Source of the DNA: a virus
Direction: 5' to 3' (one strand)
DNA: 28,771 bases
Virus record (IMG/VR): IMGVR_UViG_3300030101_001930
Span: 1 to 28,771 of that record
Under the pieces are notes generated by a model. The model ran no database searches and was not told the origin of the DNA. It saw nothing but the letters and a program-made list of their open reading frames with translations. A program made the position numbers and the translations under genes. Position 1 is the stretch's first letter. The number at the start of each line of letters is the position of its first letter. This document shows positions 2,214 through 26,836 of this stretch, piece after piece.

Positions 2214-2222
2214 GGAGTTATC

Positions 2223-3581: not shown

Positions 3582-3795
3582 ACTCTTCTCCTAGTTTGCG
3601 TGCTTTCATAATTCTATTAACATTTTGAAGTAGGATTTTGTTAGCCATAGCTTCGCCCCAAGCTTTTGGGTCTGCTATAATTTCGCTAATATCTCCGTCA
3701 ATTTCAATATCTATTTTATTGAGTTCTTTGATTTTGCTGACGGATTCTCTCAAAGATTGATTGTTGCTCATTTTCTTGCTTGTTCGCTCTGACAA
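3562..3795 (-). CDS. Hypothetical small protein in the packaging operon
   Basis: This 77-residue protein is predicted mostly helical, with an acidic middle (IDIEIDGDISEIIADPKAWG) and a basic end. A strong GAGGAGG ribosome site sits nine bases before a TTG at 3795, whereas the first ATG (3771) has none, so the TTG start is preferred. That start lies 80 bases inside the portal gene. It overlaps the next gene by 20 bases. Such small helical proteins between portal and head completion genes are common, but I do not recognise a family. Confidence 0.55.
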   Translation of the reverse strand: MSERTSKKMSNNQSLRESVSKIKELNKIDIEIDGDISEIIADPKAWGEAMANKILLQNVNRIMKARKLGEEFGKKLI

Positions 3796-5023
3796 TTTCT
3801 CTTGCCTCCTCTATAGATAAATCTTTATTGTACTTTTGAAGTAATTGTGGCTGTGTTGTTAAATTGTTTTGTAGCGCATGATTCTCTATTAATATTTGAT
3901 CTTGTACAGACTTAGGATACTCAGGCTCTATAAAATCAAGTTTAAGCTCAGCAGGAAGATTAATTCCGTTATATCCAGCAATAGCTCGCTCTACATGATA
4001 CATTTCATGCTCGTACATTCTCCAAAGCTCTATATCGTCTTGATAATCTTCAAATCTTTCAAGGTCTTTTATTTTAAGAGCGATGCCAGATGGAACTTCG
4101 CCACCATCTTGAGCAAACTGCACATATAAGTGATTATTCTGTGCTACAAGGTCTACCTGAAACTTAACGCTCTCTATTACAGACTGAATATTACCTCCAG
4201 GAGAAGCAATACCAAATGTCGCTCCCTCTGGTAGGTCAAGAATAGAATCCGATCCTGTCCTCTTCATACCTTTGTCACTATACACTCCAGTCACAAAAGG
4301 CTGCCCAAACATTTGGAATCGAAGCCCTAATTGGAGTTCCGTCATGGTTATATTCACTTGCTCATTACAATCAACAATATCATTAGCTCCCTCTACAAAG
4401 AAAGAGTCTAGCTGATTTTCTCTATGTGTAAAAACAAAAGGGATAACTCCGTAACCATGCTCAAACTCTTCCATTATATTGCCGTCTTGATCGTACTGCG
4501 CATACATATTGCTGTCCCAGTACGCATATTCTAACTCTCTTGTGTCATACACTTCATTCACATTATGTAGTATTGGATAAGTAATTGCAGTAGGCACAAA
4601 TGGATTTTCATCCATATGCACATCAAAGTAATAAACTGGTCTATAGTCAAAGTGAGGCATTTCAACATCATCTCGATAAATAATTTGGGTTGCAACAGTA
4701 CCAAGAAGTCTAGTCATTTTTTCAATGTGTTTCATCCTAGCATCTTTTTTAACAGTAAGATTAGAGTAAGAATCGCTTACATTACGATTTGCCCCAACAT
4801 TATAAATTCTAGACATTTTATTTATAAATCTTTTAGTAAAATTTGCACTGTAAACAGGAATCTCTCTGAACGCATCTGCATCAAAGTAGGGTTCAATATA
4901 TTTTTGAATTTCGCATCCAGAATAAAAGTCTAATAGCTTATATATTTCTATGCGCCTTTCTTGAGCGTATTGTGATTTTAAGTCTGTAATAGATTCTTTT
5001 ATAATCTCTTCAACTGTAGTCAT
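3716..5023 (-). CDS. Portal protein
   Basis: This 435-residue protein fits an SPP1-like phage portal in size, position directly after the large terminase, and content. It has an N-terminal helical region with RRIEIYKLLDFYSG, a central beta-rich region with Tyr and Asp (RPVYYFDVHMDENPFVPTA), a helical segment around GEVPSGIALKIKDLERFE, and a Gln-rich charged C-terminal tail. The portal is a dodecameric ring at one capsid vertex that forms the DNA channel and joins head to tail. Its ATG overlaps the terminase stop (TAATG), and a GAGGA ribosome site is present. The identification is by pattern and context; individual sequence motifs in portals are weak. Confidence 0.8.
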   Translation of the reverse strand: MTTVEEIIKESITDLKSQYAQERRIEIYKLLDFYSGCEIQKYIEPYFDADAFREIPVYSANFTKRFINKMSRIYNVGANRNVSDSYSNLTVKKDARMKHIEKMTRLLGTVATQIIYRDDVEMPHFDYRPVYYFDVHMDENPFVPTAITYPILHNVNEVYDTRELEYAYWDSNMYAQYDQDGNIMEEFEHGYGVIPFVFTHRENQLDSFFVEGANDIVDCNEQVNITMTELQLGLRFQMFGQPFVTGVYSDKGMKRTGSDSILDLPEGATFGIASPGGNIQSVIESVKFQVDLVAQNNHLYVQFAQDGGEVPSGIALKIKDLERFEDYQDDIELWRMYEHEMYHVERAIAGYNGINLPAELKLDFIEPEYPKSVQDQILIENHALQNNLTTQPQLLQKYNKDLSIEEAREIVRANKQENEQQSIFERIRQQNQRTQ

Positions 5024-6348
5024 TATCTAGTCCTCATGATTAATTTATTTCTCTTAATAGGAAATTGGTTTATAAAAAAATACCTAAGCATATCACATCC
5101 ATGGTCATGTCTACCATCTTTCAGTGGCTCAGGTTTTAAATGTTTATTTTCAACAGCTTCTGGATAGCGATAGTTTTCCAAATCTTCAGCGAGTCCCACG
5201 CATTTACGATCCAAGTGCAAATAACGATTGTCGTTGGCATTCTCAATAAATCCACGAACATGACTAATACCTGAAGCGATATTCCTTGAAGTTTTGTCTC
5301 TAACTGATTGCACATAAATTCCATTTCTTCTAAATATTTCTATATCTCCGAGTCCAGACTGTCCTTGAGCTTGCATTCCTGCTGGGTCTCCATAGTATTG
5401 TCTTACTGCATAATTTTTTGATTTTATTATATTGATAAGCTCATCCGTCTTAATATTTTTTTCGTGTATAACTTCGTCAATAACATTTATGTGCCACTCT
5501 CCATTTATTCTATGTATCTGAAACCAGCCCACTGCTGGCATTCTATATCCAAAGTCAATAGAACAGTAAGTAGGAAAATTAGGATTGTAAGGATAATCTC
5601 CTACATCTTTATTTCTATCAAATGGGTAAACTTTGCCTTCAAAAGAAGTAAAGGCGCTACCAAATTCCTGGTCAAACATTTCTTTAGACATATTCCTTTT
5701 TCTCTCTATAAGAAAAGGATCTTCCATGCCTTCAGGAAAAGCATATTGATTCTCCCAACTAGGAGCTTGATGCGATTCCCATAAATTATCGGACTGACCC
5801 AACAAATAAAGGTCGTATATCCAATTAAATCCTTCTGGGGTAGTAATAAAAATACATTTACTGTCCTTTTTATCTGCTAAAGTAGGAGATAGGTACATCT
5901 CCCATATCTTTCTTTTTACTTTAGCTGCCTCATCGATAACAAGTAGATCAAGACCAGCTCCCACTAAAGAATCTGGATTATCTGCTGACTTGGCTTCTAC
6001 CACGCTACCCCATTTGAAGCGTATGTATCGTTCTTTCTCCGAGGCTTTGTCTATATCATTAGACTTGCCGATTACCATTCGCTTCCAAACTTCTCTAAAC
6101 ATAATGTCTGCTTTGTCGTATGATAAACCTACAAGCCATACCCTCTTATTGGGCTGGGAAGCATAATAGGTAGCTTCCATAGCTGCTGCTGTAGATTTTC
6201 CAAACCTACGACCACAAACCATAACAAAAAACCTTGCATCTTCTTTGCTTGGATAATGCAATTTAGCTTGACCATTATGAGGTTTGTAATCCATAAAGTC
6301 AAACCATTTTTCTTTAAAATTTGATAGATTATTATTAAATGTTTGCAT
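5023..6348 (-). CDS. terL: Terminase large subunit
   Basis: This 441-residue protein is the DNA packaging motor. The N-terminal ATPase has a Walker A motif GRRFGKST (residues 46-53) and Walker B LDLLVIDEA (D139 and catalytic E140), followed by a coupling segment FITTPEGFN. The C-terminal RNase H-like nuclease has acidic residues in YCSIDFGY, YYGDPAG and RHDHGCDML. The length is typical of TerL. It is the first gene of a leftward operon (terminase, portal, small protein, morphogenesis protein, MuF-like protein) and diverges from the scaffold and capsid genes. A candidate promoter lies at 6364-6392. Only a weak GGGTT precedes the ATG. Confidence 0.93.
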   Translation of the reverse strand: MQTFNNNLSNFKEKWFDFMDYKPHNGQAKLHYPSKEDARFFVMVCGRRFGKSTAAAMEATYYASQPNKRVWLVGLSYDKADIMFREVWKRMVIGKSNDIDKASEKERYIRFKWGSVVEAKSADNPDSLVGAGLDLLVIDEAAKVKRKIWEMYLSPTLADKKDSKCIFITTPEGFNWIYDLYLLGQSDNLWESHQAPSWENQYAFPEGMEDPFLIERKRNMSKEMFDQEFGSAFTSFEGKVYPFDRNKDVGDYPYNPNFPTYCSIDFGYRMPAVGWFQIHRINGEWHINVIDEVIHEKNIKTDELINIIKSKNYAVRQYYGDPAGMQAQGQSGLGDIEIFRRNGIYVQSVRDKTSRNIASGISHVRGFIENANDNRYLHLDRKCVGLAEDLENYRYPEAVENKHLKPEPLKDGRHDHGCDMLRYFFINQFPIKRNKLIMRTR

Positions 6349-6363
6349 TTATAACCCAATGTA

Positions 6364-6392
6364 ATATAAGTTACGCAATAGGATAAATACAA
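6364..6392 (-). promoter_or_regulatory. Candidate leftward promoter for terminase operon
   Basis: Read leftward, TTGTAT (plus coordinates 6387-6392) and TTATAT (6364-6369) are exactly 17 bases apart, placing the start near 6357, just upstream of the terminase ATG at 6348. The -35 box lies inside the left arm of the inverted repeat at 6383-6406. Confidence 0.5.
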
Positions 6393-6406
6393 CATATTGT
6401 ATTTAT
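6383..6406. repeat. Perfect 10-bp inverted repeat, likely operator
   Basis: ATAAATACAA (6383-6392) and TTGTATTTAT (6397-6406) are perfect reverse complements around a 4-base centre, CATA. The element sits between the divergent terminase and scaffold genes. It covers the -35 box of the leftward promoter and the start of the rightward -10 box, so a bound dimer could act on both operons. It is too AT-rich and lacks a T run to serve as a terminator. Confidence 0.6.
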
Positions 6407-6409
6407 AAT
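6404..6409 (+). promoter_or_regulatory. Candidate -10 box for the rightward late operon
   Basis: A perfect TATAAT lies at 6404-6409 and would start transcription around 6416, leaving the GGAGG ribosome site of the scaffold gene (6429-6433) inside the leader. No good -35 hexamer is present 16-18 bases upstream; instead the inverted repeat occupies that space. This is the layout expected of a promoter that needs an activator, which is inference. Confidence 0.45.
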
Positions 6410-6441
6410 TAAAAAAAACACTATATATGGAGGACATAATA

Positions 6442-6957
6442 ATGTCTGATAATACCGAAACCAACGCCACAGTCAGTGAGGAAGTTTCAACAGGGACTGA
6501 GGTAAATTCGCCTGATACTGAAAGTCCACTTGCTTATGAAAATAAGAAGTACAGAAAAAGGGCGCAGGAAGCTGAAGAGCGATTAGCTGAACTTGAGAAA
6601 AAACTTGCTAGAGCAGAAGAAGCTAAACTTAAAGAAAAAGAAGACTTTAAAGCACTTTATGAAAAAGTGTCTTCTGAGAATGAAACTTTAGCCTCAACTG
6701 CACAGAAGTGGACAAAGTATGAAGAGGGTCGTAGAAATACTTTATTAGAATCAGCCCCTGAAGATGAGAGAGAAAGATTGGCAGGACTTGATCTTGACAC
6801 TCTCGAATATGTAACTGGTAAACTTAATAACAAACCTAATGCTCCTGAAGTTGTGGGAAGAGCCAAAAATATCATTCCAGACAAGCCGTACGAACAGATG
6901 GATGAGAATGAAAGAAGGGTTTGGTTCAATTCTCAAATGCAGAAGCATAGAGGATAA
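6442..6957 (+). CDS. Capsid scaffold protein
   Basis: This 171-residue acidic protein lies immediately before the major capsid gene. It has a disordered Thr/Ser/Glu-rich N-terminus, a long coiled coil (about residues 30-90, KKYRKRAQEAEERLAELEKK and onward), and a short charged C-terminal region ending KHRG that probably binds the capsid protein. This composition and position fit phage scaffolding proteins, which template procapsid assembly and then leave. The start at 6442 is chosen over an in-frame ATG at 6427 because the GGAGG ribosome site lies at 6429-6433. No separate prohead protease gene is visible in the window. Confidence 0.75.
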   Translation: MSDNTETNATVSEEVSTGTEVNSPDTESPLAYENKKYRKRAQEAEERLAELEKKLARAEEAKLKEKEDFKALYEKVSSENETLASTAQKWTKYEEGRRNTLLESAPEDERERLAGLDLDTLEYVTGKLNNKPNAPEVVGRAKNIIPDKPYEQMDENERRVWFNSQMQKHRG

Positions 6958-6973
6958 TTGGAGAAAATAAAAA

Positions 6974-7915
6974 ATGGCATATAATAATAATGCTGCAATA
7001 TCTGGTGGTCTTAATGGCGAAGGGACAAGAGCTGCTGAAAGCTTTGCAACCGAAGTCTGGGCGCCTGCCGTAGAAGTTGCAATTAAAGAAAAACTAGTCC
7101 TTGCAGGGCTTTGTAATGACTTGAGTGCATTTGTATCAACTCAAGGAGAAAAAATACACTTACCAAAAGTAGATTCAATTACTGCTGGCGACAAAGGAGA
7201 AGGAGCAATTACATGGGAGACTTCTTCAAGTGATGCTGGAGAGGAAGCTTTGCTTGTTGATAAGCATAAGTATGCTGCTGTTGTTATAGAAGATGTTATC
7301 AAAGTTCAGGGTAATTATGACATGATGAGCTTGTTTGCAACAGAGCTTGGATATTCAGTTGCAAATGCTATTGACGTGGCAGTAGATGCTGCTATTATTG
7401 ATAGCTTAAAAGCAAGTGGTGGAGGTATTAATCAAATTACTCCAGCTAATGACATGGGAAGTGAAGCAGACTTTGATACAATCGCAACTAGTGTTCTAGT
7501 CCAAGACTCAGACCCTAGTGCATGGACAATAGTTCTAGCTCCTTCAACTTATGCTAACTTATTTAATATAGGTGATTTAGCCTTAGGTACACAGGGATCT
7601 GCAATGGGTGCTAACTTTACTCAAACAGGCATGGTTAGCAAGGCTTACGGTTTTAATATCGTAATGTCCCCAAATGTTACAACTGCTAGCACTAATTTCG
7701 ACTCAGGTGGTGGTACAGACAGTGTTGCTCCTCTTGGATACTGTGTTCATAAGTCAGCTTTACATATTGCATTTAGCCAGCAAGCTAGACTGCAAACTCA
7801 ATACGATGTTGACTTCCTAGGTACTAAGGTTATAGCAGACTCTATATTTGGAGTATTGGCTAGAAATACTGTTAGTACAAGCACAGGTCAAGGAAGAATA
7901 TTCTTAATAAAATAA
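6974..7915 (+). CDS. Major capsid protein
   Basis: This 313-residue protein follows the scaffold gene and is followed by a strong terminator hairpin, as expected for the most abundant virion protein. It opens with an N-arm-like segment (ESFATEVWAPAVEVAIKEKL) and continues with a long beta-rich middle, a central helix (YSVANAIDVAVDAAIIDSL) and a C-terminal segment (FGVLARNTVSTSTGQGRIF). This resembles coat proteins of the P22/T7-like and N4-like HK97-fold groups. No N-terminal delta domain is present, consistent with a separate scaffold. The ribosome site TTGGAGA lies nine bases upstream of the ATG. Confidence 0.8.
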   Translation: MAYNNNAAISGGLNGEGTRAAESFATEVWAPAVEVAIKEKLVLAGLCNDLSAFVSTQGEKIHLPKVDSITAGDKGEGAITWETSSSDAGEEALLVDKHKYAAVVIEDVIKVQGNYDMMSLFATELGYSVANAIDVAVDAAIIDSLKASGGGINQITPANDMGSEADFDTIATSVLVQDSDPSAWTIVLAPSTYANLFNIGDLALGTQGSAMGANFTQTGMVSKAYGFNIVMSPNVTTASTNFDSGGGTDSVAPLGYCVHKSALHIAFSQQARLQTQYDVDFLGTKVIADSIFGVLARNTVSTSTGQGRIFLIK

Positions 7916-8147: not shown

Positions 8148-8657
8148 ATGGGCAATGCTTCAAGCGACTATACAATCATAACAGTAACGCCAACATTAAC
8201 AGCAGGCGAAGCCTACGCTGATGGCGATGTTTTGTTTGAGCCAACAGAAATACCAAATGCAGTTCTAGGTAATGGTGGTTGTTGTAAACTAATAAAAGCA
8301 TTTTTAATTGATTATGACCGAGACACATTTACAGCAGATATAATTTTTACTGAAAAAAGCACACCTGCTATTGGAACGAAACACGCAGCAGCAGGCATTA
8401 CTGATGCAGATTTTAGGACTACGGGTTTTATTGGTGCTTTAAAATTTGACAACCAATCTAGGGTAGATGATATAGATAATGTAAGACCTGCTGAATTACA
8501 GTCATTGTCAGGAGCAGGCGAATCAGTAGACCCTATGTTGTTACAAGCAGCAGATGATAGCACAAGTGTTTACGTATCAGCTGTTTTAGCTAGTGGAAGT
8601 CCAACATTTACGAATACAAATGACATACAACTAGTATTGCACATACAATACAAATAA
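8148..8657 (+). CDS. Putative virion structural protein (decoration or fibre type)
   Basis: This 169-residue, Thr/Ala/Asp-rich protein has predicted beta structure throughout (SSDYTIITVTPTLTAGEAYA at the start, NDIQLVLHIQYK at the end). It resembles small virion beta-sandwich proteins and lies two genes after the capsid gene, so a capsid decoration protein is plausible. The last strand resembles the end of the protein at 12273-13061 (SVQIKYHLT), hinting at a shared fold. An AGGGAG ribosome site precedes the ATG. I do not recognise a named family. Confidence 0.6.
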   Translation: MGNASSDYTIITVTPTLTAGEAYADGDVLFEPTEIPNAVLGNGGCCKLIKAFLIDYDRDTFTADIIFTEKSTPAIGTKHAAAGITDADFRTTGFIGALKFDNQSRVDDIDNVRPAELQSLSGAGESVDPMLLQAADDSTSVYVSAVLASGSPTFTNTNDIQLVLHIQYK

Positions 8658-9082
8658 TGAAAGATTTAAAAAATCTTAAAACCCAAATAGCAAAGCACGA
8701 AGGCTACGAGCCTGAAGTTTATAAATGCCCCAATGGATACGATACCATTGGGTATGGCTTTGCAATAAAAGACTTATATATGGATAAGGAAGTGGCTGAT
8801 CTTATTTTAGATAAAAAAATAAGAGGTATATTAGTTAGCATAGAGTCTAACGATGATTGGAACGGATGGTTCTGGAATAAGCCTAAAAATGTAAAAGAAG
8901 TCCTTATTAACATGATATTCCAGATTGGATTTTCTGGAGTACGAAAATTTAAAAAAACAATACAATACATAAAAGATGACAACTTTTTGATGGCTAGTGA
9001 GGAGATGCTCGATAGTAAATGGGCAAGGTCAGATAGTCCTAATAGGGCTAAAGAGTTAAGTGAAATTATAAAATCACAATAA
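8657..9082 (+). CDS. Endolysin, GH24 phage-type lysozyme
   Basis: This 141-residue protein is a T4-type muramidase. The N-terminal motif HEGYEPEVYKCPNGYDTIGY aligns to the T4 active site with identical spacing: E15, C24 and T30 correspond to T4 E11, D20 and T26. The Asp position is Cys, a change found in many phage endolysins. It would cut the glycan strands of peptidoglycan. There is no signal peptide or signal anchor, so it depends on a holin to reach the cell wall; three small membrane proteins at 10352-11196 are candidates. The ATG overlaps the preceding stop (TAATG) and has no ribosome site of its own, so translation is probably coupled. Confidence 0.88.
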   Translation: MKDLKNLKTQIAKHEGYEPEVYKCPNGYDTIGYGFAIKDLYMDKEVADLILDKKIRGILVSIESNDDWNGWFWNKPKNVKEVLINMIFQIGFSGVRKFKKTIQYIKDDNFLMASEEMLDSKWARSDSPNRAKELSEIIKSQ

Positions 9083-9097
9083 TCAGCCAGGGGGTGC

Positions 9098-10309
9098 ATG
9101 ATAAACCCTAAAGAGTTAATATGTCCTAATTGCTACAATATTGGAATGACCAAAGAGGGATTTTCAAGAGAAGGCAGGCAGCGATATAAATGTAAATCTT
9201 GTCATTGCAAGACGGTCTACCCTATATGGGATGCCGACCACGATATAGTCCGAGAGAATGTAAGGCTATCCAAGCAGAAACAGAAGGCTCAGGACAAAAA
9301 TCGCATATTGAATAAATCCTTTCGTGAACACGCTAGGATAGAAAACGCTGTAGAAGAGTACAGCAAAGAATTAATAAAGCTTTTTGAAAATAACGATTTG
9401 CATAAAACCTTAAATGAGTTCAAGGTTAATAACAAAGCTGTAGGTGTACTTCAGTTGTCGGATGTTCATTTTAACGAACTTGTAGATTTGGAAAACAATA
9501 AATATGATTTCGAAGTCGCCTCCTCCAGGATCAGGTATTTTGTCAATAGAGCGAAGATGTACTTTAAGACTGCGAATATTACAAATGTTGTATTGGCAAT
9601 GACTGGCGATATGATGAATAGTGACAGAAGACTTGACGAACTTCTAAATCAGGCTACCAATAGAGCTAAGGCTACATTTCTTGGAGTGGACATCCTTCAA
9701 CAAGCTATTATAGACCTTAACCAGGATTTTAATGTTACAGTTGCATCTATTATAGGTAACGAGGGTAGAGCGAATAAAGAAATGGGTTGGAGTGACATTG
9801 TAGCAACAGATAACTATGATTATACAATATTTCAATGTTTAAGGTATTTATTTAGAAATAAAAGTGTTAAATTTATACACGGTGATCCCTCAGAATTAGT
9901 GATTAATGTCGCAGGACAAAATCTACTAATGCTCCATGGTCATGGTTCGCTTAGAGGCAAACTAGACACTGCTGTAAATCAAATCGCTGGAAGATACTCG
10001 CTCAAGGGTATAAAGATTGACTATGTTATATTTGGTCATGTACACAGCGCAAGAGTCGGAGACAACTTTGGAAGAAGCTCATCTTTAGTAGGTGCTAACG
10101 ACTATGCAGAGAAAGCACTTAATCTTAATGGTAGAGCTAGCCAAAACTGCTACATATTTCATAGCAACGGAAATAGGGATGGCATAAAGGTTGACCTTCA
10201 GCATACAGACGGAAAAGGGTATGACATAGATAAAGCTTTGGAGGCATACAATGCGAAATCGTCAGAAAAAAGAGTGCAGAAAAAAACGATATTTGAAGTT
10301 GTCGTCTGA
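9098..10309 (+). CDS. Calcineurin-like metallophosphoesterase with N-terminal zinc ribbon
   Basis: This 403-residue protein joins two parts. Residues 7-37 form a zinc ribbon of the transposase type (CPNC at 9-12, then GRQRYKCKSC ending at C35), followed by a basic helical linker (about 50-100). The rest is a binuclear metallophosphoesterase with all motif blocks in order: DVH (D122, H124), GD (D171), GNEGR (N221), HGH (H280, H282) and GHVH (H314, H316). The usual GNH block has Glu in place of His. Such enzymes cut phosphodiesters in nucleic acids or nucleotides; Mre11/SbcD nucleases belong to the superfamily. The substrate here is unknown. It sits between the lysozyme and putative holins, an odd place for a DNA enzyme. 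A good AGGGGGT ribosome site precedes it. Confidence 0.85.
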   Translation: MINPKELICPNCYNIGMTKEGFSREGRQRYKCKSCHCKTVYPIWDADHDIVRENVRLSKQKQKAQDKNRILNKSFREHARIENAVEEYSKELIKLFENNDLHKTLNEFKVNNKAVGVLQLSDVHFNELVDLENNKYDFEVASSRIRYFVNRAKMYFKTANITNVVLAMTGDMMNSDRRLDELLNQATNRAKATFLGVDILQQAIIDLNQDFNVTVASIIGNEGRANKEMGWSDIVATDNYDYTIFQCLRYLFRNKSVKFIHGDPSELVINVAGQNLLMLHGHGSLRGKLDTAVNQIAGRYSLKGIKIDYVIFGHVHSARVGDNFGRSSSLVGANDYAEKALNLNGRASQNCYIFHSNGNRDGIKVDLQHTDGKGYDIDKALEAYNAKSSEKRVQKKTIFEVVV

Positions 10310-10351
10310 TTACTGGACTACAACAGTCACACCAAAAATAAGGTTTTATAG

Positions 10352-10597
10352 ATGATAGATAAAAAGATATCTGTGGGAACGCTACTCACTATAGTGACAA
10401 TAGGAAGCACAATAATATTTACTCAAGGAGCAACAACTCACAGGATAGATGTGATTGAAGCAGATTCAGTTGAGAACAAGAATGCTATAAAGACAGTAAG
10501 TAGAGAAGTGAATAACAATAAGGTCGATATAGGTAGAATAGAAGCCAAGATAGATGAAGGCTTCAAAAGACTAGAAACATTGCTGATTGAAAACTAA
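10352..10597 (+). CDS. Small membrane protein, holin-class candidate
   Basis: This 81-residue protein has a transmembrane segment at about residues 6-25 (ISVGTLLTIVTIGSTIIFTQ) followed by a charged coiled coil (RLETLLIEN at the end). One membrane helix plus a soluble coiled coil fits several phage holin-like or spanin-like proteins. It begins a set of three consecutive membrane proteins after the lysozyme and phosphoesterase. An AAGG ribosome site lies nine bases upstream. Its stop overlaps the next ATG (TAATG). Confidence 0.6.
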   Translation: MIDKKISVGTLLTIVTIGSTIIFTQGATTHRIDVIEADSVENKNAIKTVSREVNNNKVDIGRIEAKIDEGFKRLETLLIEN

Positions 10598-10890
10598 TGG
10601 ATATTTTTGCAATATTAGATCAGTATGGAGTGCCTTTGGCGATGTGCGCAGCATTTGGGTACTTTATTTGGAAGCAGAACTCTTGGATACAAAATGATTT
10701 AAAACGTGACCTTGATGATGCTAACGAAAGATTTGAAAAGATAGTTATTGGGTTAATAAACTCTCAGAAGCAAATGCAGCTAGACATAAAAGATTCAAAG
10801 GCTAGCTATAGAGCGATAGTAGAGATTCTCGCAGCCATGTCAGGAAATGGGTTGAAAGAGAAATTTTTAAATAATAAAAAAGATTATTAA
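10597..10890 (+). CDS. Small membrane protein with coiled coil, holin-like
   Basis: This 97-residue protein has a transmembrane segment near residues 11-25 (GVPLAMCAAFGYFIWK), then a long charged helix with Glu, Lys and Asp. This matches the outline of BhlA/UviB-type holin-like proteins (one N-terminal membrane helix and a basic coiled coil), though I cannot confirm the family. It overlaps the previous gene by one base. It could act alone or with its neighbours in membrane permeabilisation. Confidence 0.6.
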   Translation: MDIFAILDQYGVPLAMCAAFGYFIWKQNSWIQNDLKRDLDDANERFEKIVIGLINSQKQMQLDIKDSKASYRAIVEILAAMSGNGLKEKFLNNKKDY

Positions 10891-10902
10891 AGAGGAGACA
10901 AT

Positions 10903-11196
10903 ATGTTAGATACATTACTAGGAGCAGTATCAGGTAATTCAGGAATGATAGTTGGTGGTGGAGCATCAGCAGTAGTATTATGGGTATTAAAAAAAGTCCC
11001 AAATGAGCATATTTGTGGAGTGATAGAGACAGCGTTTGAAAGCATAGGCAAAGTTATGACACTTGGTCTAGGTAAATGGAAAGTAACAAAAGGTGTGTGG
11101 AATAGCACTATCGAGCCATGGTTTGTAGACTTAATTGATAATGTATTCGGATCTATGGTAAGAGGTTTTATAAAAGGATTGAGGAGTGATAATTAA
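10903..11196 (+). CDS. Small membrane protein, possible holin
   Basis: This 97-residue protein begins MLDTLLGAVSGNSGMIVGGG and has a Gly/Ala/Val-rich membrane segment at about residues 13-30 ending in KK. The C-terminal half contains amphipathic helices with aromatic residues (VWNSTIEPWFVDLIDNVFG). The AGAGGAGA ribosome site is strong. It is a holin candidate by position near the lysozyme, but it could also be a virion-associated membrane protein. It overlaps the next gene by 11 bases. Confidence 0.55.
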   Translation: MLDTLLGAVSGNSGMIVGGGASAVVLWVLKKVPNEHICGVIETAFESIGKVMTLGLGKWKVTKGVWNSTIEPWFVDLIDNVFGSMVRGFIKGLRSDN

Positions 11197-14889: not shown

Positions 14890-15147
14890 ATGGCTAAGTA
14901 TAGAGGCAAGTCAGTTAGACTTAATAAGCCGACTCGTATTCGTAAAGGTCAGCCAGGATATGGTAGAAAGAAGTCCCAAGTATACGTCAGATCTGGGAAT
15001 AAAATAAAAAGAATTACATTTGGTGACCCTAATATGAGAATAAAGAAATCAAGCCCAGCAAGAAGAAAGTCTTTCAGGGCAAGACATAAGTGTGCAACAG
15101 CTAAGGATAAAACAACAGCAAGATATTGGTCTTGCAAGGCGTGGTAA
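14890..15147 (+). CDS. Small basic protein with FRARHxC...YWSC motif
   Basis: This 85-residue protein is strongly basic (about +26: 28 Lys plus Arg, 2 Asp). The N-terminus (KYRGKSVRLNKPTRIRKGQP) and middle (ITFGDPNMRIKKSSPARRKS) lead to a conserved-looking C-terminus FRARHKCATAKDKTTARYWS plus C, where two Cys and a His could bind a metal. I recall this C-terminal pattern from many marine and cyanobacterial phage proteins, some in head gene regions. Biochemical role unknown. Confidence 0.7.
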   Translation: MAKYRGKSVRLNKPTRIRKGQPGYGRKKSQVYVRSGNKIKRITFGDPNMRIKKSSPARRKSFRARHKCATAKDKTTARYWSCKAW

Positions 15148-15148
15148 G

Positions 15149-15352
15149 ATGGCGAGAAAGAAACGTAAAACGAGAAGAAAGACAAAGAGTAGAGTGAATG
15201 AAGCAGGTAACTATACTAAGCCTACTATGCGTAAAAGACTTTTTAGAAAGATATTAGCAGGTTCAAAGGGTGGCAGAGCAGGTCAATGGTCAGCCAGAAA
15301 AGCTCAGATGTTAGCTAGGCAGTATAAAGCTAAGGGTGGAGGCTACAGATAA
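15149..15352 (+). CDS. Small basic protein, 67 residues
   Basis: The ATG at 15149 is preferred over an internal upstream ATG at 15092 because it follows directly after the previous stop and has an AAGG about nine bases upstream. The protein has an Arg/Lys N-terminus (MARKKRKTRRKTKSR) and a C-terminal segment TMRKRLFRKILAGSKGGRAG followed by QWSARKAQMLARQYKAKGGG. Net charge is near +23. The QWSARKAQMLA-YKA-GGGY ending looks like a recurrent small phage protein family without a function. Confidence 0.65.
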   Translation: MARKKRKTRRKTKSRVNEAGNYTKPTMRKRLFRKILAGSKGGRAGQWSARKAQMLARQYKAKGGGYR

Positions 15353-15597
15353 TGGCTCTTAAAAAATCACAAAAGTCTTTAAAGAAGTGGACTTCGCAGA
15401 AATGGGACTATGTTAGTGCAAGAGACAAAAAGAAGCCTAAGAGTAAGAGAGGCAGATATTTACCTAAGTCTGTTAGAGATAGCCTCACTCCTGCGCAAAA
15501 AGCGTACGAAAATAGAAAGAAAAGAAAAGCAACGAAAGCTGGCAAGCAACGAGCAAAATATTCTAAAAAAGTTAGAAAAAAGATGAGAGGTAAATAA
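15352..15597 (+). CDS. Small basic protein, possibly DUF5872-like
   Basis: This 81-residue protein has about 33 Lys plus Arg and 4 acidic residues (net near +29). It contains SLKKWTSQKWDYVSARDKKK, then RGRYLPKSVRDSLTPAQKAY and a basic tail. The order SLKKWT-QKW, RYLP, then a Lys/Arg helix recalls the DUF5872 family as I remember it, unverified. DUF5872 is uncharacterised. The ATG overlaps the previous stop, and its own stop overlaps the connector gene start, so it is tightly embedded in the virion operon. Confidence 0.65.
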   Translation: MALKKSQKSLKKWTSQKWDYVSARDKKKPKSKRGRYLPKSVRDSLTPAQKAYENRKKRKATKAGKQRAKYSKKVRKKMRGK

Positions 15598-18547: not shown

Positions 18548-18987
18548 AACTCAATGTAACGATTGAGCCATGTGGGGGCTGTAAATTCCATAAATTTCCT
18601 TACAAGGCACAACTACCAGTAATGGTAGATGGGCAATACGAAACTCGCACATTTACTTGCGAGAAAGATGTTTGGGAAGTTGTAGATTTAATTATAGAAG
18701 AAACAAAGGAGATGAATGAAACGAGTGGCAAATCTTTTAGCCCAGCATCCTCTGTCAAGAGCCAACTTCCTTTCTTTGCCTGTAATAACATCATATTTGA
18801 TAAAGAATTTCAACAAGATATTGAACGATATATATACTGCGAGAACTTTAAGACTCCAGCATTCCCTGGAAGTTATGACGAGCAACCTGCGAGATGGGTT
18901 CAAAAGTCTTTTCTTATAAAGAAAGCAGTAGGAAAAATACAAAATAAGGCTGTAAAGAATGGCAAACAAGATAACAGTAAAGTTTGA
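18269..18987 (+). CDS. Tail assembly chaperone frameshift product (lambda GT-like), -1 shift near 18526
   Basis: If ribosomes slip back one base on the GGG codon at 18524-18526, reading continues in the -1 frame from GGA at 18526 to the stop at 18987, giving about 239 residues. The join reads MG-GARSLQLELNVTIEPCGG. The second part has a Cys/His cluster (CGGCKFH, then TFTC) and a charged helix (VWEVVDLIIEETKEMNETSG). The downstream frame has an internal ATG at 18622 but no ribosome site there, and the frame is open well upstream of it, which favours frameshifting over a separate start. This matches the lambda G/GT arrangement. The 3' end overlaps the tape measure gene by 29 bases. Confidence 0.7.
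18521..18530 (+). other. Probable -1 frameshift site in tail chaperone genes
   Basis: The sequence ATGGGGGAGC holds five G (18523-18527); zero-frame codons are ATG GGG GAG. A -1 slip keeps perfect pairing of the GGG tRNA. The A-site codon GAG would become GGA, so this is not a canonical X XXY YYZ heptamer. The shift must happen between a -1 frame stop near 18500 and the zero-frame stop at 18545-18547, and this G run is the best candidate in that interval. Confidence 0.6.
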
Positions 18988-20680
18988 GGCACAGGGCGCA
19001 AGAGCGCTAAAAACTGCTATAGAACAACTAGCAGTAGCACAAACGAGATTAAATAAAAGCAATAAAGCTGCTGAAAGATTGCAAGCTAAATTAAATAAGC
19101 AAATTAAAAATTACAGCAAAGACTCTGTTCTTGCCACTAGAAATACAAGATTACTTGCAGGGGCGTTTGCAACATTAAGATCAAAACTTCTTTTGACTGC
19201 TTTTGCAATGAATATTGTTAAAAATTCATTAGGTAGTTTAGTTAATTTGTTTGGAGAGCAAGAAGATGCAGAAAAAAGATTAGAAGTTGCTTTAGGTGGT
19301 GTGAATCAAGAGTTATTAGATTTTGCATCTGCAAGCCAGAAAGTTACTAGGTCTGGAGACGAAACTATAATATCTGCAATGGCTTTAATAGCAGCTTTTG
19401 TTGATGATGAAGAGCAAATAAAAGCAGCAACTACAGCAACTTTAGATTTAGCAGCAGCAAAAGGTATGGACTTAAATTCTGCTGCTGATTTAGTAGCCAA
19501 GACTTTGGGAAGTGAGACAAATTCTTTATCTAGATATGGTATTCAAGTAGAGGGAGCAGTAGGGTCAACCGAAAGACTTACAAGTCTTACTAATAGTATG
19601 GCTGAAGCTTTTGGGGGGCAAGCTACCGAGCAGGCTGGCACTTTAGCAGGCAAGCTTGATAGAGTAAAAAATATCATGGGAGATATTGGCGAAGATGTTG
19701 GAGAAAAAATGGAATCTACTTTAAGCAAAGTAACTACAGCTATGCTTAAATTTAATGATGCTCTAACAGATGAAGAAATACAAGAAGAAGCAATTAAAAA
19801 AACAAAAGAAGATATAATAGAGCTTGATAGAAGGATTGCAGCTAATCTTGAAAACACTAATTCAGAGGACAAGCTTGATGCTGAAATTAACCTTTTAGAT
19901 CAGTTCCTTAGAAAAACAAAAGAAGCAAGAGAAGAGCAACTAAAACTGCTTACCCCAACGGAAAACACAGAAGCTCAAGCTGCTTTTGAACAAGAGATGG
20001 CTTTAATTCAATTAGAATTAGATACAGATGAAAATAAGTATATACAAAAAAGAGACAGAATGATAGCTTTCAGGCAAGAAGAAACAGCTTTAGGGGAAAA
20101 CGCTGTTCATTTTAGTTTTGAAATGCACAAGAAGGAATTGAAAGCATTTGAAGACAAAGAAAATAAAAAAAAATTAATACAATTAAAAGCAGGGCAAGAA
20201 TCTATAAGAATATTATCACAAGTTGCTCAAGCTATTGACAAAAACTCTGGATTAGCTAAAGCTGCGATGGTTGCAGAGATGATGGTTAATGCTTTTATGA
20301 TTGCTCAAAAAACCTTAATGTCTCTACTTGATATGGATGTGCCGTTTCCTGCTGCTTTTGCTTTATCAACAGCTCAATTTGTTGCACAAGTAGCCCAAGT
20401 AAATAAAGCAAAACAATTTGAAACTGGTGGACTTGTCGGAGGAAGAAGACATTCTCAAGGTGGAACTATGATAGAAGCAGAACAAGGCGAGTTTGTTATG
20501 AGTAGAGATGCTGTAGAGTCTATAGGCGCTGGGACTTTGGAAGCTATGAATCAAGGTGGAGGTGGCGCTATAACAGTTAATGTGTCTGGTAATGTTATGA
20601 CAGACGACTTTGTAGAGAATGAACTTGCAGAAAAAATTGCTACTGCTGTTAGGCGTGGCACAGACTTTGGAATGGCATGA
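18959..20680 (+). CDS. Tail tape measure protein
   Basis: This 573-residue protein follows the tail chaperones. It has a Lys/Ala-rich helical N-terminus, a hydrophobic stretch (about residues 65-98, LLAGAFATLRSKLLLTAFAM and on), helical coiled-coil regions in the middle (260-400), a second hydrophobic region (about 440-480) and a C-terminal block typical of tape measures: FETGGLVGGRRHSQGGTMIE, then GEFVMSRDAVESIG. Tape measures set tail length and may help DNA entry. By the usual rule of about 1.5 angstrom per residue, the tail would be near 85 nm; this is a rough inference. The ATG lies inside the previous frame. Confidence 0.85.
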   Translation: MANKITVKFEAQGARALKTAIEQLAVAQTRLNKSNKAAERLQAKLNKQIKNYSKDSVLATRNTRLLAGAFATLRSKLLLTAFAMNIVKNSLGSLVNLFGEQEDAEKRLEVALGGVNQELLDFASASQKVTRSGDETIISAMALIAAFVDDEEQIKAATTATLDLAAAKGMDLNSAADLVAKTLGSETNSLSRYGIQVEGAVGSTERLTSLTNSMAEAFGGQATEQAGTLAGKLDRVKNIMGDIGEDVGEKMESTLSKVTTAMLKFNDALTDEEIQEEAIKKTKEDIIELDRRIAANLENTNSEDKLDAEINLLDQFLRKTKEAREEQLKLLTPTENTEAQAAFEQEMALIQLELDTDENKYIQKRDRMIAFRQEETALGENAVHFSFEMHKKELKAFEDKENKKKLIQLKAGQESIRILSQVAQAIDKNSGLAKAAMVAEMMVNAFMIAQKTLMSLLDMDVPFPAAFALSTAQFVAQVAQVNKAKQFETGGLVGGRRHSQGGTMIEAEQGEFVMSRDAVESIGAGTLEAMNQGGGGAITVNVSGNVMTDDFVENELAEKIATAVRRGTDFGMA

Positions 20681-23600
20681 TAGATATAGATTCGCTTTAC
20701 CCAGCTATAGCAAATGACTTAGCATCACAAGCAAATAATATAGAGTATCTTGTCCATATAGAAGGTGTTGCTTATATTGCGACAAGAAAACAAATGTTTG
20801 AAACTGACGGTCAAGAAACATACTACGAAGACCTTGATTTAAAAGTATCAAATATCAAAGAAAAGATAGATATTAAGAATAAGAAAATATATCTTTCTAA
20901 TTCTAGTATCACCATGAATAACTTCCCTGTGCTAACTAGCGAAATCTCGCTTGACAATGAAAGAATATCAGATAGAATATTTCAAGGTTATGGAAAAACA
21001 ATCTCTGTATACTTTAAAACTCAATCTTGTAAAAACTTAGATGATTGTTTAAAGATAGCAGACCTTAGCATTACTAAAATTACACACGATGGCGACAAGA
21101 TAAAAATAGATGCAGAAGACAAGAATCAGCAGTCATTTTATGTAAATCTCCCAAGGCAACAACACGTACTAGAAAAAGATTTAAATACTTTCTCTTCATA
21201 CGACCAAAAAGTTGTGCCTATCTTGTATGGACATTTATTAGATGCCCCTGCTGTAATATATGTAAATGAAATGCAGCTACCTACTTCAAATATATATGAT
21301 GACAATAATATTACTTTACTCCCAGATAACTCTTTTATCTCGCAAAATAATTCTAATATTCAAGGCATTAAAGATTATGGTCAGCCTATATTTACTAGTG
21401 GTGACTCAATCAATGAAGTTAGTTTCTTAGAAAATGACAATGTTGTCAAAATGAAAATAGATGATATTATGTGTAGTGTTAATAGGTTGCCTTACTACAA
21501 TATAAGAGATTTCAAGGACTTATCTATAGCTGCTTTTCATAACTACCCTCAATTTGAAGTTATGGCAGACCATATTCAATTTAATACAAGGTACGAAGGG
21601 GAATCAACTATATTAAAAAAGGGTGGAGTTTGGACACACACATTTTCTCCATCTATATCTAGGGAAGGAATATTCCTAAGAAGCATATCAGCTTTTCTTG
21701 ATGTTGGAAGTATAATAAGCGTTGCCCCAATACAATATCAAGCTTTTTCGCCAATTATTGATGGAGCGAATTTAGAATTTGAAAATTCTATTTTTACCGA
21801 TCAAGATAATACTGTCGCTAATTTCGATTTCGGTTCAATAAACTCAGTTACAACTGGGTTGTGTGCAGAGAAATTAGAGTTTGAATCTGCCCCAAACATG
21901 AATGTGCTTATAAAGCCTAACGGTAATGATTATCCAAAAGATATGAATTTTACTGGTAATATGGAAGTTTTATTAAATCCTGATGGTGTAAGTAATGCTC
22001 AAAATTTAAATGTGTTTTGTGTGTCATCTGGATACAGCTTAGATGAAACTAATTTTGGAGATTCGGGGGTTATTAACAATGCAGAGCTTAATGGGTTTCC
22101 ATCTGAGTTTGGAAGTGATTTGCAAGAAGTCAAGGAACAGTTTTTGGAAATTGAAACTGGTGATCTTGGTCTCCCAGAAGATTTCTTTTTCTTTGAAATA
22201 GATGGATTAGATCAATATATTAATTTTATATTTGCTTTATCATCTCCATTTTTTACCTCGATGTCTTTAGAAAACGAAAATAATCTAAGCAATAGATTTA
22301 TATCTTATTTATACCCACAATATGGTTTAAACTCTGATGGCATATCTGGCTTTGGATTGGAATTTGAAAATATTTTTAAAAACTATGAAAGGTCGTTTGA
22401 TGAGTTTCTTCCTGAGTCAGCAGTTGAAGCTTTTGAAGGCGAGGGGTTAATAACCAATCCTAAATTTCCTATAGAAAAAGCATCAGAACTAACATTTTAT
22501 TATATGTTTGATACTCTTTTTGAAGATTCGGATGGGACTGGAATAAACAATACATTGATTACAAACCTATCTAATATTCACATGAGAAGATTTTGGTGTG
22601 AAGCAGAAGCGTTTACTAAAGAATACTTTTTAGATGCACGAGGCAGAACTGATTTAGCAGTGTACGAGACAAGACTGACTGAGGGAGAGCCTGACTTTTT
22701 ACTTATAGATAGAGTTACTGGTTTAGTAAGGATAGTTGCAGATTCATCAGATGACGATATTTTTGACGTTGATTTTAACAATAAATCTTATAGTTACAAT
22801 GTAGACAATAAACATTACTTAGAATTTATAGAAAAGCTTACCAATCCTGACCTTAAAACAAAAATGATAGATGGAAAAGTTCATGAAATAATGATGATGT
22901 GTGGAGAGGCATTTTTATATGACGTAGAAATAAATGATATAACGCCTTTTAAAAATGGTATGGATATCCCTGAATTGCCATGGGAGCAATTTGATGATGG
23001 GAATGTAAGTAAAAATAACGGTTGGGATATTAACTTTAAAGCAAATAGATTTGGTTTTAACGGAGATGAAAACATTAATGTAAGTAAAATAGATGATGAA
23101 TACTTTGGAAGGTTTGATGGAATAAAATTAGTATATGGAAGAAAAGTTTTTAATTACGATTTAGATGAGGTTGGCGCTAAAGAAATTACTTCCATAGAGG
23201 TTGCACCTGACGAGGATTCTACTGAATTGCAAGAATTTAACACTTTAAATAGATATGATGGGGGCGAAATTAGCATTCCATTGCATGTTGAGGGTTTATC
23301 TGCTGCTATTTGGAACTCTGCGTATCATAATCAATTAAATTATTATGGGAATATGATAGAAAACCCAGTAGAAATATCTAGAAACTTAATAAAAACAGAA
23401 ATGAATGAATCGGTTACATTTGATCCTAATAAATTAAAAATAGGTCAAGAGTTTAACGATTCAATAAAGCAGGCGTTTTCTGTAAATGAGAGACTAAATT
23501 CTAGAGAAATACTTGAAAACATATTTAAGCATTCAAGGTCATACTTTAATTACAGACCAAGAGATGGCAAGGCTATCGTACATACGATACAAGACGATTA

Positions 23601-25368
23601 CTCATCTGTCGACAAAACTATAGACTCAGACAATATTTTAAAATTTAGCTACACTAAAACTAGCTTAAAAGACATTTGTGGGGCTGGATGTACAGTTAAG
23701 TATGGATACGACTATGGGACAGAAGAGCTTACAAAAACAACTACAAAAAGAGCTATATTTTCTGGTGATGCAATTCCTTATAAGTTATATTATGGCATTT
23801 CTGATGATGATTTTGATAACTATGTATTAGAGTTTGAAGCGCCATACATTCAGGATAAAGCTTCTGCTGAATATTTAAGAAACTTTCTTTTCCAAATGAA
23901 TTTACACCAGCACCTAATTGTAAAACTTACTTTAGACATAAAAGATGGATTAGAGCTAGAGGTAGGAGATGTTGTTTCATTTAATAAAAACCCTAATAAT
24001 GTAAAGCCTTATGGAAGAAGTTTAAATGTTTCTTATGAGCTTTTTCAGCAGACAGTGTTACCTTTTTTTATGATTACAAATATATCTAAAGGGGCTACAA
24101 GTGTTGCCATAGAGGCTTATCAACTTCACACAATAAATATGGAGCAAATTAAACCTACATTGCTAGGGGATATAAATGAAGACAATCAAGTCGATGAATA
24201 TGATTTTGTTATTTTAGATAATTATATATCTAACCCTAATAACTTTGATTTAACAGAACAACAATTTGTAAATGCTGATATAAATGGCGATGGATTTTTA
24301 AATGAGTTAGATTTATTGGCAATGACCGATTTAGATTATTTTGTCCAACCTAATCAGCCCCCAACATCTAGTATTTTAATAGATGGCGCAAATGTTGGTT
24401 ATAATTTGGAAACTTCTGTAGGAGAAGATGGTAGTGAAATATACATACTAGACATAAACAATTCTTCAAATTACGCTAATGGTGGATTTTATGATGGAGT
24501 TTTATTTACTAACTTAAAAGGTCAAGGTAGTGATTCAGATGGAGAAGTTGAGAAATATTTGTGGAGCGTGCAAATAGGAGAGACCATGCCTATGTTTTTA
24601 AACAGCATAGAGCCAGGAACTTCAAGTAGACCTTGGATATCTTTAAGACATACAGACAACCAAGAGGAAGTTGGAGAAATAACACTTGATAATACTGGGA
24701 ATTATTTTTCTATAAAAGTTGACTTAAAAGGGTTAAACGCTGTGCAAGATGGCGTGAGAGTATATTTAAATACGGTGGACAATGATGAAGCAATGTCGGA
24801 ACAAGAATCACAAATAACTTTCTTTCCAGGTGAATACTCGGAAGCTCCAGATCCACCAGTGTTTTCTATCTGCGAGCCAAAACAGACTTTTAGTAATGCT
24901 TTAAATACCGATATAAATTTTGAATTGGTAGGTAATATTTGGCAAGCAATAGTCACAGATGGTGATATGAACACAGATTATATAAATTTTCCAGGAACAA
25001 ATCCTTTATATAGTACAATGAAAATTAATTTCAATATAGCTCAATATTATAGAGATATATTAAATAGTCCACCTTCTCCATATTTTGTTGTATATACGTT
25101 TAGTGATATATTTGGAAATAAAATATCGGAATATTTTGAATGGGTTACTTCAAATGTTGAAAGTGAGTATACACTATCAATTTACATGAATGAATTATTA
25201 AATGCGATAGACGTAAATGCAGCTGCTATCCCTGATCCTATTGATAACTTGTATATATATATTACATTAGATATTCATGTTAATACATACGGTAATTTAA
25301 ATCAAGGAAATCCATTTTTAGGTGCGCAGGTGCAATTTAGTATTCCAGAACTTTATGAAGAATTTTAA
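20677..25368 (+). CDS. Large tail-tip / baseplate protein with dockerin-like and PKD-like domains
   Basis: This 1563-residue protein overlaps the tape measure stop (ATGA). The N-terminal ~200 residues (SNIKEKIDIKNKKIYLSNSS, then TKITHDGDKIKIDAEDKN) and the region near 960-1160 resemble phage tail hub proteins. Residues 1164-1224 contain two dockerin type I calcium loops: D1165-N1167-D1169-D1173-D1176 and D1201-N1203-D1205-N1209-D1212, each in a D-x-N-x-D context followed by a helix. A PKD/Ig-like domain follows (GQGSDSDGEVEKYLWSV, from G1282), then about 220 further beta-rich residues. It is likely the central tail-tip protein, with a C-terminal extension exposed for host binding. No enzyme motif was seen. 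Confidence 0.75.
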   Translation: MIDIDSLYPAIANDLASQANNIEYLVHIEGVAYIATRKQMFETDGQETYYEDLDLKVSNIKEKIDIKNKKIYLSNSSITMNNFPVLTSEISLDNERISDRIFQGYGKTISVYFKTQSCKNLDDCLKIADLSITKITHDGDKIKIDAEDKNQQSFYVNLPRQQHVLEKDLNTFSSYDQKVVPILYGHLLDAPAVIYVNEMQLPTSNIYDDNNITLLPDNSFISQNNSNIQGIKDYGQPIFTSGDSINEVSFLENDNVVKMKIDDIMCSVNRLPYYNIRDFKDLSIAAFHNYPQFEVMADHIQFNTRYEGESTILKKGGVWTHTFSPSISREGIFLRSISAFLDVGSIISVAPIQYQAFSPIIDGANLEFENSIFTDQDNTVANFDFGSINSVTTGLCAEKLEFESAPNMNVLIKPNGNDYPKDMNFTGNMEVLLNPDGVSNAQNLNVFCVSSGYSLDETNFGDSGVINNAELNGFPSEFGSDLQEVKEQFLEIETGDLGLPEDFFFFEIDGLDQYINFIFALSSPFFTSMSLENENNLSNRFISYLYPQYGLNSDGISGFGLEFENIFKNYERSFDEFLPESAVEAFEGEGLITNPKFPIEKASELTFYYMFDTLFEDSDGTGINNTLITNLSNIHMRRFWCEAEAFTKEYFLDARGRTDLAVYETRLTEGEPDFLLIDRVTGLVRIVADSSDDDIFDVDFNNKSYSYNVDNKHYLEFIEKLTNPDLKTKMIDGKVHEIMMMCGEAFLYDVEINDITPFKNGMDIPELPWEQFDDGNVSKNNGWDINFKANRFGFNGDENINVSKIDDEYFGRFDGIKLVYGRKVFNYDLDEVGAKEITSIEVAPDEDSTELQEFNTLNRYDGGEISIPLHVEGLSAAIWNSAYHNQLNYYGNMIENPVEISRNLIKTEMNESVTFDPNKLKIGQEFNDSIKQAFSVNERLNSREILENIFKHSRSYFNYRPRDGKAIVHTIQDDYSSVDKTIDSDNILKFSYTKTSLKDICGAGCTVKYGYDYGTEELTKTTTKRAIFSGDAIPYKLYYGISDDDFDNYVLEFEAPYIQDKASAEYLRNFLFQMNLHQHLIVKLTLDIKDGLELEVGDVVSFNKNPNNVKPYGRSLNVSYELFQQTVLPFFMITNISKGATSVAIEAYQLHTINMEQIKPTLLGDINEDNQVDEYDFVILDNYISNPNNFDLTEQQFVNADINGDGFLNELDLLAMTDLDYFVQPNQPPTSSILIDGANVGYNLETSVGEDGSEIYILDINNSSNYANGGFYDGVLFTNLKGQGSDSDGEVEKYLWSVQIGETMPMFLNSIEPGTSSRPWISLRHTDNQEEVGEITLDNTGNYFSIKVDLKGLNAVQDGVRVYLNTVDNDEAMSEQESQITFFPGEYSEAPDPPVFSICEPKQTFSNALNTDINFELVGNIWQAIVTDGDMNTDYINFPGTNPLYSTMKINFNIAQYYRDILNSPPSPYFVVYTFSDIFGNKISEYFEWVTSNVESEYTLSIYMNELLNAIDVNAAAIPDPIDNLYIYITLDIHVNTYGNLNQGNPFLGAQVQFSIPELYEEF

Positions 25369-25377: not shown

Positions 25378-25896
25378 ATGAATAAAAATTTACTACATAT
25401 AAATCAGTATCATAACGAGATTTACATTAAAAATAAATATGATGCTAAAATTATAGAAATTAGATATACTGGTAATATTGTTGCAGATTGTTTAGCAAAT
25501 TCTGTCGTGCTTATGAGTCATAATAAAATAATGATTATTAATCCTAAAAAAGAAATTAGGGCAAAACTTTTATTTAGATACTATGGAAACTTTAAGATAA
25601 AAAGAATATATGTTTACCATGAAGGTAAAATGATTCCTGGAGCAATTAGTCATCATTTTGACGAGATAGAACATATACACAGCCAAATAGACACAGCTAC
25701 ATTTAAATACGAAGACATGAATAAAACAACTAAGAATTATCCAGCTTTAAATAGTATGGTGTCTTATGAAATTGAAGGCAAAAAAGGGTATGCATCTCCG
25801 AAAGATATTGGGAGAAGAATAACAAAAAGATATACAAAAGAGGGCGCAATTTTAAATAATTTAATAAGTAAAAGAGGTGACGATGCCATTAGATAG
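25378..25896 (+). CDS. Hypothetical tail-associated protein
   Basis: This 172-residue protein begins MNKNLLHINQYHNEIYIKNK. It has predicted beta strands in the first 85 residues, then a His-rich segment (SHHFDEIEHIHSQIDTA) and a basic C-terminus (GRRITKRYTKEGAI). No named family. It lies between the large tail protein and another tail protein, so a role in tail-tip or fibre assembly is inferred from position. Only a weak AAGG precedes the start. Its end overlaps the next gene by 14 bases. Confidence 0.55.
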   Translation: MNKNLLHINQYHNEIYIKNKYDAKIIEIRYTGNIVADCLANSVVLMSHNKIMIINPKKEIRAKLLFRYYGNFKIKRIYVYHEGKMIPGAISHHFDEIEHIHSQIDTATFKYEDMNKTTKNYPALNSMVSYEIEGKKGYASPKDIGRRITKRYTKEGAILNNLISKRGDDAIR

Positions 25897-26836
25897 AGGA
25901 ACATCAATAGGAAAACCAAAAGTGTTTATAGACTATGTACAGTATTTAAGAGCTGTTGGAGCAGTTAGCGAGTTTGTCGAAAACCCCAATGTTTGGGATA
26001 TGAATCCATCTAAAACTGTTAATTTGAGTTTTGGCACTACAAGTCAAGTAGTATTTGACATACTTGAAGATAACAATGTGTCAGATTTTTTAAATACTGT
26101 AAATTATTTTGCTATATTGGGTCACGATAGCAGTGCTGAAAACTTTACTTTAAATTTTGGTCAAGACAGCAGCAACGTCAATTTAAATGTTTACGCCCCT
26201 AGGATTGCTTTAGCAGATTACTCTGGATATCATATTTTTAATATAAAAAAATCAGTATCTGACAATAGTAGATATAAAGTTAAAAATACATCATCTTGCA
26301 ATATTGGATGCTACTCTATAGGAAGAATATTTACTTTCCCAAATGCTCCAGACCTAAGTGTTGATTTTAAGCTTACGCACGATGGCATAAAAAGAAAAAG
26401 AACTATAGGTGGTAGCGATATTACTGACATCAATCACTATCAAACTCCAGATTGGGTAGGCAGAAGACCATGGACAGCTTCTGATAACAGCAACACAAGT
26501 TATAAATATACTGGCTATAATGGCAGAAGGTCTTGGAAAGTCAAATTCTCGTATCTAGATCACACTAATACCATGCCCATTGACACCAATGAGTCTTTTT
26601 TGCTTGATGGATACTTACCAGACAATGCAATATCTTTAAACGTAATGCCTGATAAATTAAATATAGTATCTCACTTCTTATCTCTCACATTGAACGGAAA
26701 TTTAAAATTTATATTTCAACCAAATGAAGATGAAGATCAGTTTTCTTTATGTTTGCTTGATAAGAACAGCACCACTATAAAACAAGTAGCACATAAGACC
26801 TACGAAGTTAGCTTTACTTTTGTCGAGACTTACTAG
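25883..26836 (+). CDS. Putative tail protein
   Basis: The ATG at 25883 has an AGAGGTGA ribosome site just upstream and is preferred over an in-frame GTG at 25877 within that site. The 317-residue protein starts MPLDRGTSIGKPKVFIDYVQ and is beta-rich with many Asn, Asp, Ser and Tyr. It has a recognisable mid segment (HYQTPDWVGRRPWTASDNSN) and a C-terminal domain ending YEVSFTFVETY. It is the last gene of the rightward late operon and probably forms part of the tail tip. Its last 23 bases overlap the convergent nuclease gene, with no terminator between. Confidence 0.55.
   Translation: MPLDRGTSIGKPKVFIDYVQYLRAVGAVSEFVENPNVWDMNPSKTVNLSFGTTSQVVFDILEDNNVSDFLNTVNYFAILGHDSSAENFTLNFGQDSSNVNLNVYAPRIALADYSGYHIFNIKKSVSDNSRYKVKNTSSCNIGCYSIGRIFTFPNAPDLSVDFKLTHDGIKRKRTIGGSDITDINHYQTPDWVGRRPWTASDNSNTSYKYTGYNGRRSWKVKFSYLDHTNTMPIDTNESFLLDGYLPDNAISLNVMPDKLNIVSHFLSLTLNGNLKFIFQPNEDEDQFSLCLLDKNSTTIKQVAHKTYEVSFTFVETY

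Follow-up and report, generated by a model that had tools for sequence, protein, structure and literature searches.

A dockerin module on the tail-tip protein of an uncultured phage lineage, and its possible part in host recognition

Why should a phage tail protein carry what looks like a type I dockerin, and what might such a module do there? The question arises from an uncultured tailed-phage contig of 28.8 kb (28,771 nt; an IMG/VR record), here called the window, which encodes a terminase and a major head protein. A sequence-only reading of this DNA had recognised, within a tail protein, a double calcium module like that of type I dockerins, and it suggested three roles: a calcium-dependent stabiliser, a socket for another virion protein, or a means of binding polysaccharide-associated, cohesin-like surface proteins of the host.

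The Pfam-A search matched residues 1163-1216 of the protein to Dockerin_1 (PF00404) with 38.3 bits (E 1.5e-9), and a six-frame search gave 43.1 bits for the same dockerin, the curated cut-off being 22.9 bits. Dockerin_1 was the sole Pfam match at E <= 1, a range in which neither an EF-hand profile nor any other family appeared, so the profile check proposed in the sequence-only reading came out for the dockerin; together with the structure comparison below, it rules out a calmodulin-type EF-hand for the window module. Both 12-residue loops (Table 1) have all of the calcium-ligand positions (1, 3, 5, 9 and 12) and lie 36 residues apart, and the earlier placing of the two loops at 24166-24348 (residues 1164-1224), with that spacing, proved exact. 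Nowhere else in the 1563-aa protein does the loop pattern recur. A chance motif is excluded by shuffling, which gave the pair in 0 of 2000 shuffled proteins, as well as by profile and fold. In the close homologues L002 (94%), L003 (60%) and L004 (56%) the module persists with its calcium ligands, the loop 1 pattern being retained in all three and loop 2 likewise, with asparagine replaced by aspartate at position 9 in two of them. We infer that the window dockerin binds calcium. Positions 10/11/17/18/22 read E, Y, D, N, N in one half of the window dockerin and E, L, T, D, F in the other, and neither the twofold symmetric recognition residues of the classical type I dockerins of cellulosomes nor the Ser-Thr/Lys-Arg pattern of Clostridium thermocellum CelS is present in it.

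Table 1. Features of the tail-tip region of the window
Feature	Position	Strand	Basis or remark
Tape measure protein	18959..20680	+	gene directly upstream of hub protein; weak PHROG tape measure match
Tail tip/hub protein, 1563 aa	20677..25368	+	ORF; directly downstream of tape measure gene
Conserved hub, residues 1-1155	20677..24141	+	alignments and tree; ends at motif QLHTINM common to relatives
Dockerin type I module, residues 1163-1216	24163..24324	+	PF00404 match, AF2 fold, PDB matches
Calcium loop 1, D1165-D1176, DINEDNQVDEYD	24169..24204	+	ligand positions D, N, D, D, D
Calcium loop 2, D1201-D1212, DINGDGFLNELD	24277..24312	+	ligand positions D, N, D, N, D
PKD/Ig-like extension (tentative), residues 1225-1390	24349..24846	+	motif D.DGE...Y.WS conserved
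Fast-evolving C-terminal region, residues 1391-1563	24847..25365	+	candidate receptor-binding part
Small neighbour gene, 172 aa, conserved	25378..25896	+	homologue also adjoins dockerin-less hub of L044
Neighbour gene, 319 aa, conserved	25877..26836	+	homologues also in dockerin-less L044, L045, L046, L048

An AlphaFold2 model of the domain, for which 18 related dockerins from viral contigs were used, reached a pLDDT of 89 and a pTM of 0.77. As the sequence-only reading had expected, the two loops run into predicted helices at 1174-1185 and 1210-1217, so that paired loop-helix sites are present in the predicted model; an extra predicted helix (1194-1200) lies between the two units. In a Foldseek comparison, PDB matches 1-34 were all solved dockerins (probability 0.94-1.00), with a best E-value of 2.7e-3 that is modest, as expected for a query of 75 residues, and calmodulin-type EF-hands stood far down the list (TM about 0.25). 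The first half of the dockerin also matches a solved structure labelled 'stopper protein' (PDB 30yu, E 0.0017). Since the Pfam match, the predicted fold and the conservation of the loops agree, we regard the identity of the dockerin as firm in both sequence and predicted fold, and we have very little doubt that a true dockerin type I module, with two calcium-clamped loop-helix units, is fused to the tail-tip protein in a siphovirus-like lineage of uncultured phages.

The designation as a tail-tip (hub) protein comes from the position of the gene right after the tape measure gene and from a conserved gene order, which hub homologues share in at least 20 uncultured contigs; the weak tape measure match in the window is supported by a strong one (213 bits) in the relative L046. 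The hub is most conserved in its last 285 residues. Outside the dockerin the 1563-aa protein has no Pfam, PHROGs or PDB family match, and the label 'hub-like' is for that reason taken solely from gene order; no relative of the hub was found among the named phages searched, and a model of the 528-aa C-terminal half was too poor for use. The sequence-only reading had set the module between hub-like sequence and a surface-type C-terminal extension. Residues 1391-1563 have 17-20% identity to L003 and L004, compared with 75-86% in the adjacent hub, and a dN/dS of about 0.6-1.1. The PKD part is tentative, the Pfam match being found in the homologue L003 only and below threshold (14.8 bits, cut-off 27).

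Two conserved genes follow the hub gene. A dedicated partnership of the dockerin with them is ruled out as a general rule, their homologues adjoining hubs that have no dockerin. In L014, two consecutive paralogues of the 319-aa gene occupy 8229-9743 and 9745-10953, the first with a large insert relative to the window gene. Elsewhere in the window, 14890-15597 holds a row of three small, very basic proteins that match PHROGs families of unknown function, and 9098-10309 encodes a calcineurin-like phosphoesterase/exonuclease (PHROG 284) with an InsA-type zinc ribbon joined to it, the Pfam matches falling short of the cut-off.

To follow the module through the lineage, we reached the wider set of contigs by scans with the hub or with the 319-aa gene, the latter a dockerin-independent probe; neither probe contains the dockerin. 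L023 and L024 entered the set by way of a dockerin scan, and L024 then co-seeded a later scan for relatives. When the window is included and the count is limited to contigs whose hub is complete at its C-terminal end, a dockerin is present in 19 of 21 with a long hub, a figure in which those of L059 and L061 reach no more than 17-19 bits against a profile made for this analysis, L035 aligns to dockerins with no Pfam hit, and L010 (21.1 bits) and L024 (19.1 bits) do not reach the cut-off when whole proteins are scanned, another count placing both above it. Nor is the sample one of independent contigs, the hubs of L014 and L015 being identical, L055 and L062 apparent near-copies, and L023 and L024 having come in by the dockerin scan. 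The dockerin is absent from two long-hub contigs, L044, which has a PKD-like extension, and L056, whose protein stops at the hub end, and from the four short hubs (L045-L048); the hub can therefore function without it. On the hub tree, where the deeper branching is poorly supported, dockerin presence and absence need at least three changes, and L044 groups with the dockerin-bearing L061 (support 88/87), which suggests that L044 may have lost its dockerin. Because some relatives are without the module and the neighbour genes persist without it, we read the dockerin as an optional and apparently exposed module. Genome scans toward identification of a host found no relative. The C-terminal dockerins of this lineage may resemble those of marine FCB-group bacteria.

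Four architectures can be distinguished. In the window, L002, L003 and L004 the hub is followed by the dockerin, a PKD-like region and a variable end, and L061 is similar. In L010, L014 and L015, three repeats of GCTDPxAxNYNP type lead through an Ig-like region to a C-terminal dockerin, and L063 and L064 resemble these with one or no such repeat; the repeats between hub and dockerin carry cysteines in L010, L014 and L063. The protein ends with the dockerin in a third group (L023, L024, L034, L035, L055, L059 and L062), and in L036 and L050 the hub is followed by tandem arrays of about four dockerin units (at 6796-7668 in L036; in L050, in the C-terminal part of the hub encoded at 2114-7501). 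One EF-hand match above its cut-off lies within the array of L036. Overall, the dockerin is the last, C-terminal module in 12 of the 19 contigs that have one, and L021, a contig with a very divergent hub that came from the dockerin scan and stands outside the 21, also ends in a dockerin. Two large phage contigs, L019 and L020, encode a 687-aa protein with at least four dockerin copies (3342-5402 and 1426-3486, respectively) near tape measure and baseplate-like genes, and a further 738-aa frame with one dockerin.

Another way to view the module is through its rate of change relative to the hub to which it is joined. We compared the dockerin with the last 285 hub residues in ten pairs of contigs, several of which share members and so do not make ten independent tests. 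Amino-acid differences were 8.3% in the dockerin against 0.4% in the hub for the window and L002 (p = 0.0007), 27.7% against 1.4% for L010/L014 and 40% against 13% for L024/L034, and the dockerin was the more divergent also in window/L004, L003/L004, L024/L035 and L034/L055. L014 and L015 are identical, the dockerin of L023/L024 is not faster than the hub, and L063/L064 run in the opposite direction, with the hub differing more in amino acids than the dockerin. The dS values are 0.62 for the dockerin against 0.055 for the hub in L010/L014, and 0.028 against 0.36 in L063/L064, a mismatch that shows exchange of the dockerin separately from the hub in these two pairs.

Between the window and L002, the dockerin codons differ by five replacement and no silent changes, and residues 881-1240 outside the dockerin by one replacement and three silent changes. 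Three of the five dockerin replacements fall at loop-1 positions 10, 11 and 17, which we take to be the counterparts of classical cohesin contacts. Because this coincidence (p about 0.03-0.06) was noticed after the fact, it serves as a lead only, and it is weak since the exposed positions of any small domain vary. The fast change of the dockerin could also be due to relaxed constraint, though its calcium ligands are conserved across the window's group.

The most economical reading of the module's role, in our view, is that it forms a calcium-locked end piece of the tail tip, can be exchanged, and contributes to recognising the host; we give this reading a probability of about 0.5. The 1563-aa protein would form the tip of the virion. 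In the window, the dockerin, between the conserved hub and the fast-evolving C-terminal extension, would carry that extension and would also present a variable surface of its own, and in most relatives the dockerin itself would be the outermost module; its exposed surface would contact a host molecule. In support stand the fold prediction, the intact loops, the recurrence of the module, its optional presence and C-terminal position, its fast change in several pairs and its separate exchange, and it is fast change and module exchange by which a host-facing role gains. Counting against it are the hub fold and the place in the virion, for which no family match speaks, and the dockerins of L023/L024 and L063/L064, which are not faster than their hubs.

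The host-recognition idea has an attractive version in which the dockerin would bind a cohesin that the host displays, either at its surface or on a scaffoldin, a cellulosome-type lock thus serving as receptor. The predicted fold and calcium loops are like those of cohesin-binding dockerins, loop-1 positions 10, 11 and 17 vary between the two closest relatives, and non-cellulosomal cohesin-dockerin pairs occur in other microbes (PMC9012536, PMC8542988). Against this, and in line with the earlier remark that no cohesin partner was recognised in the window, a cohesin-family search found none encoded in 13 records (the window and 12 related ones, some of them fragments); the two halves also have neither matching recognition residues nor the CelS pattern, in a code that varies between species. 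We consider a cohesin receptor unlikely, and advance with the same reserve the wider picture of a phage lineage that grips host-surface cohesins with tail-tip dockerins, shuffled and diversified to track host variation.

It is rather improbable that the dockerin is a calcium-stabilised joint or stalk segment which has no ligand and spaces a C-terminal receptor-binding part from the hub. Such a part could follow in the window, L002-L004 and L061, where the dockerin lies between the hub and further domains, and the tandem arrays of L036 and L050 are stalk-like; however, the dockerin is not simply a spacer, because in the contigs where it comes last nothing is left to space, and in several pairs it outpaces the hub. 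A socket for a further virion protein of the same phage (fibre or decoration), favoured by the general background that dockerins are docking modules and that tail tips bear attached fibres, is more doubtful still, since the conserved neighbour genes tested as partners persist in phages that have no dockerin and a cohesin family protein is in none of the 13 records. Thus the identification made in the sequence-only reading holds, and its stabiliser (as a mere joint) and socket roles are weakened.

Among known systems, the type I dockerins of C. thermocellum (PF00404; Xyn10B, 1OHZ/2CCL; double dockerin, 8X39) likewise have two DxNxDxxxxxxD loops leading into helices, and the predicted phage model superposes on the Xyn10B dockerin 2CCL at 1.2 A rmsd over 56 alignment columns. 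Unlike them, the window module lies inside a phage tail protein instead of ending a secreted enzyme, and it comes without the twofold repeat of recognition residues and without a cohesin in the 13 records. Dockerins outside cellulosomes occur in many microbes, mostly without known function. Bacterial and archaeal examples include ANME archaea and Cloacimonadota, some with surface-protein domains; these, unlike the phage module, are parts of proteins of cells whose genomes are reported to encode cohesins as well (PMC9012536, PMC8542988). Among viruses, BFVD proteins of uncultured phages (A0A516LCZ1 and others, several of 830-1344 aa) have the same predicted module, with database names only, if any (e.g. 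'Dockerin type 1', Myoviridae sp. ctCL221); we found no functional description of them. The few dockerin-like matches in named phage records are weak and come chiefly from contigs of gut phages and a single Ruminococcus phage. A dockerin is mentioned as a bare homology remark for gene 40 of Vibrio phage VvAW1, and a structural match labelled dockerin carbohydrate-binding module is reported in a tailspike-like protein of E. coli phage HSE2; in the open-licence literature searched, no description of a recurrent tail-hub or tail-tip dockerin turned up.

The closest analogy for the protein as a whole may be the siphophage tail-tip host-recognition proteins such as lambda J, in which a conserved hub is likewise followed by a variable C-terminal end; unlike lambda J-type tips, the window protein has no sequence match to known tip families, and its dockerin is an addition. 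Thus the dockerin family, its members outside cellulosomes and viral database entries with the same predicted module were already known, and what is new here is a dockerin that recurs in one phage lineage as the swappable, fast-changing end of a tail-tip protein. This gives non-cellulosomal dockerins a concrete, testable setting and hints at a class of receptors that phages of unknown hosts may use; should a cohesin partner come to light, the cohesin-dockerin couple, well studied and of high affinity, would also count as a pairing of phage and receptor.
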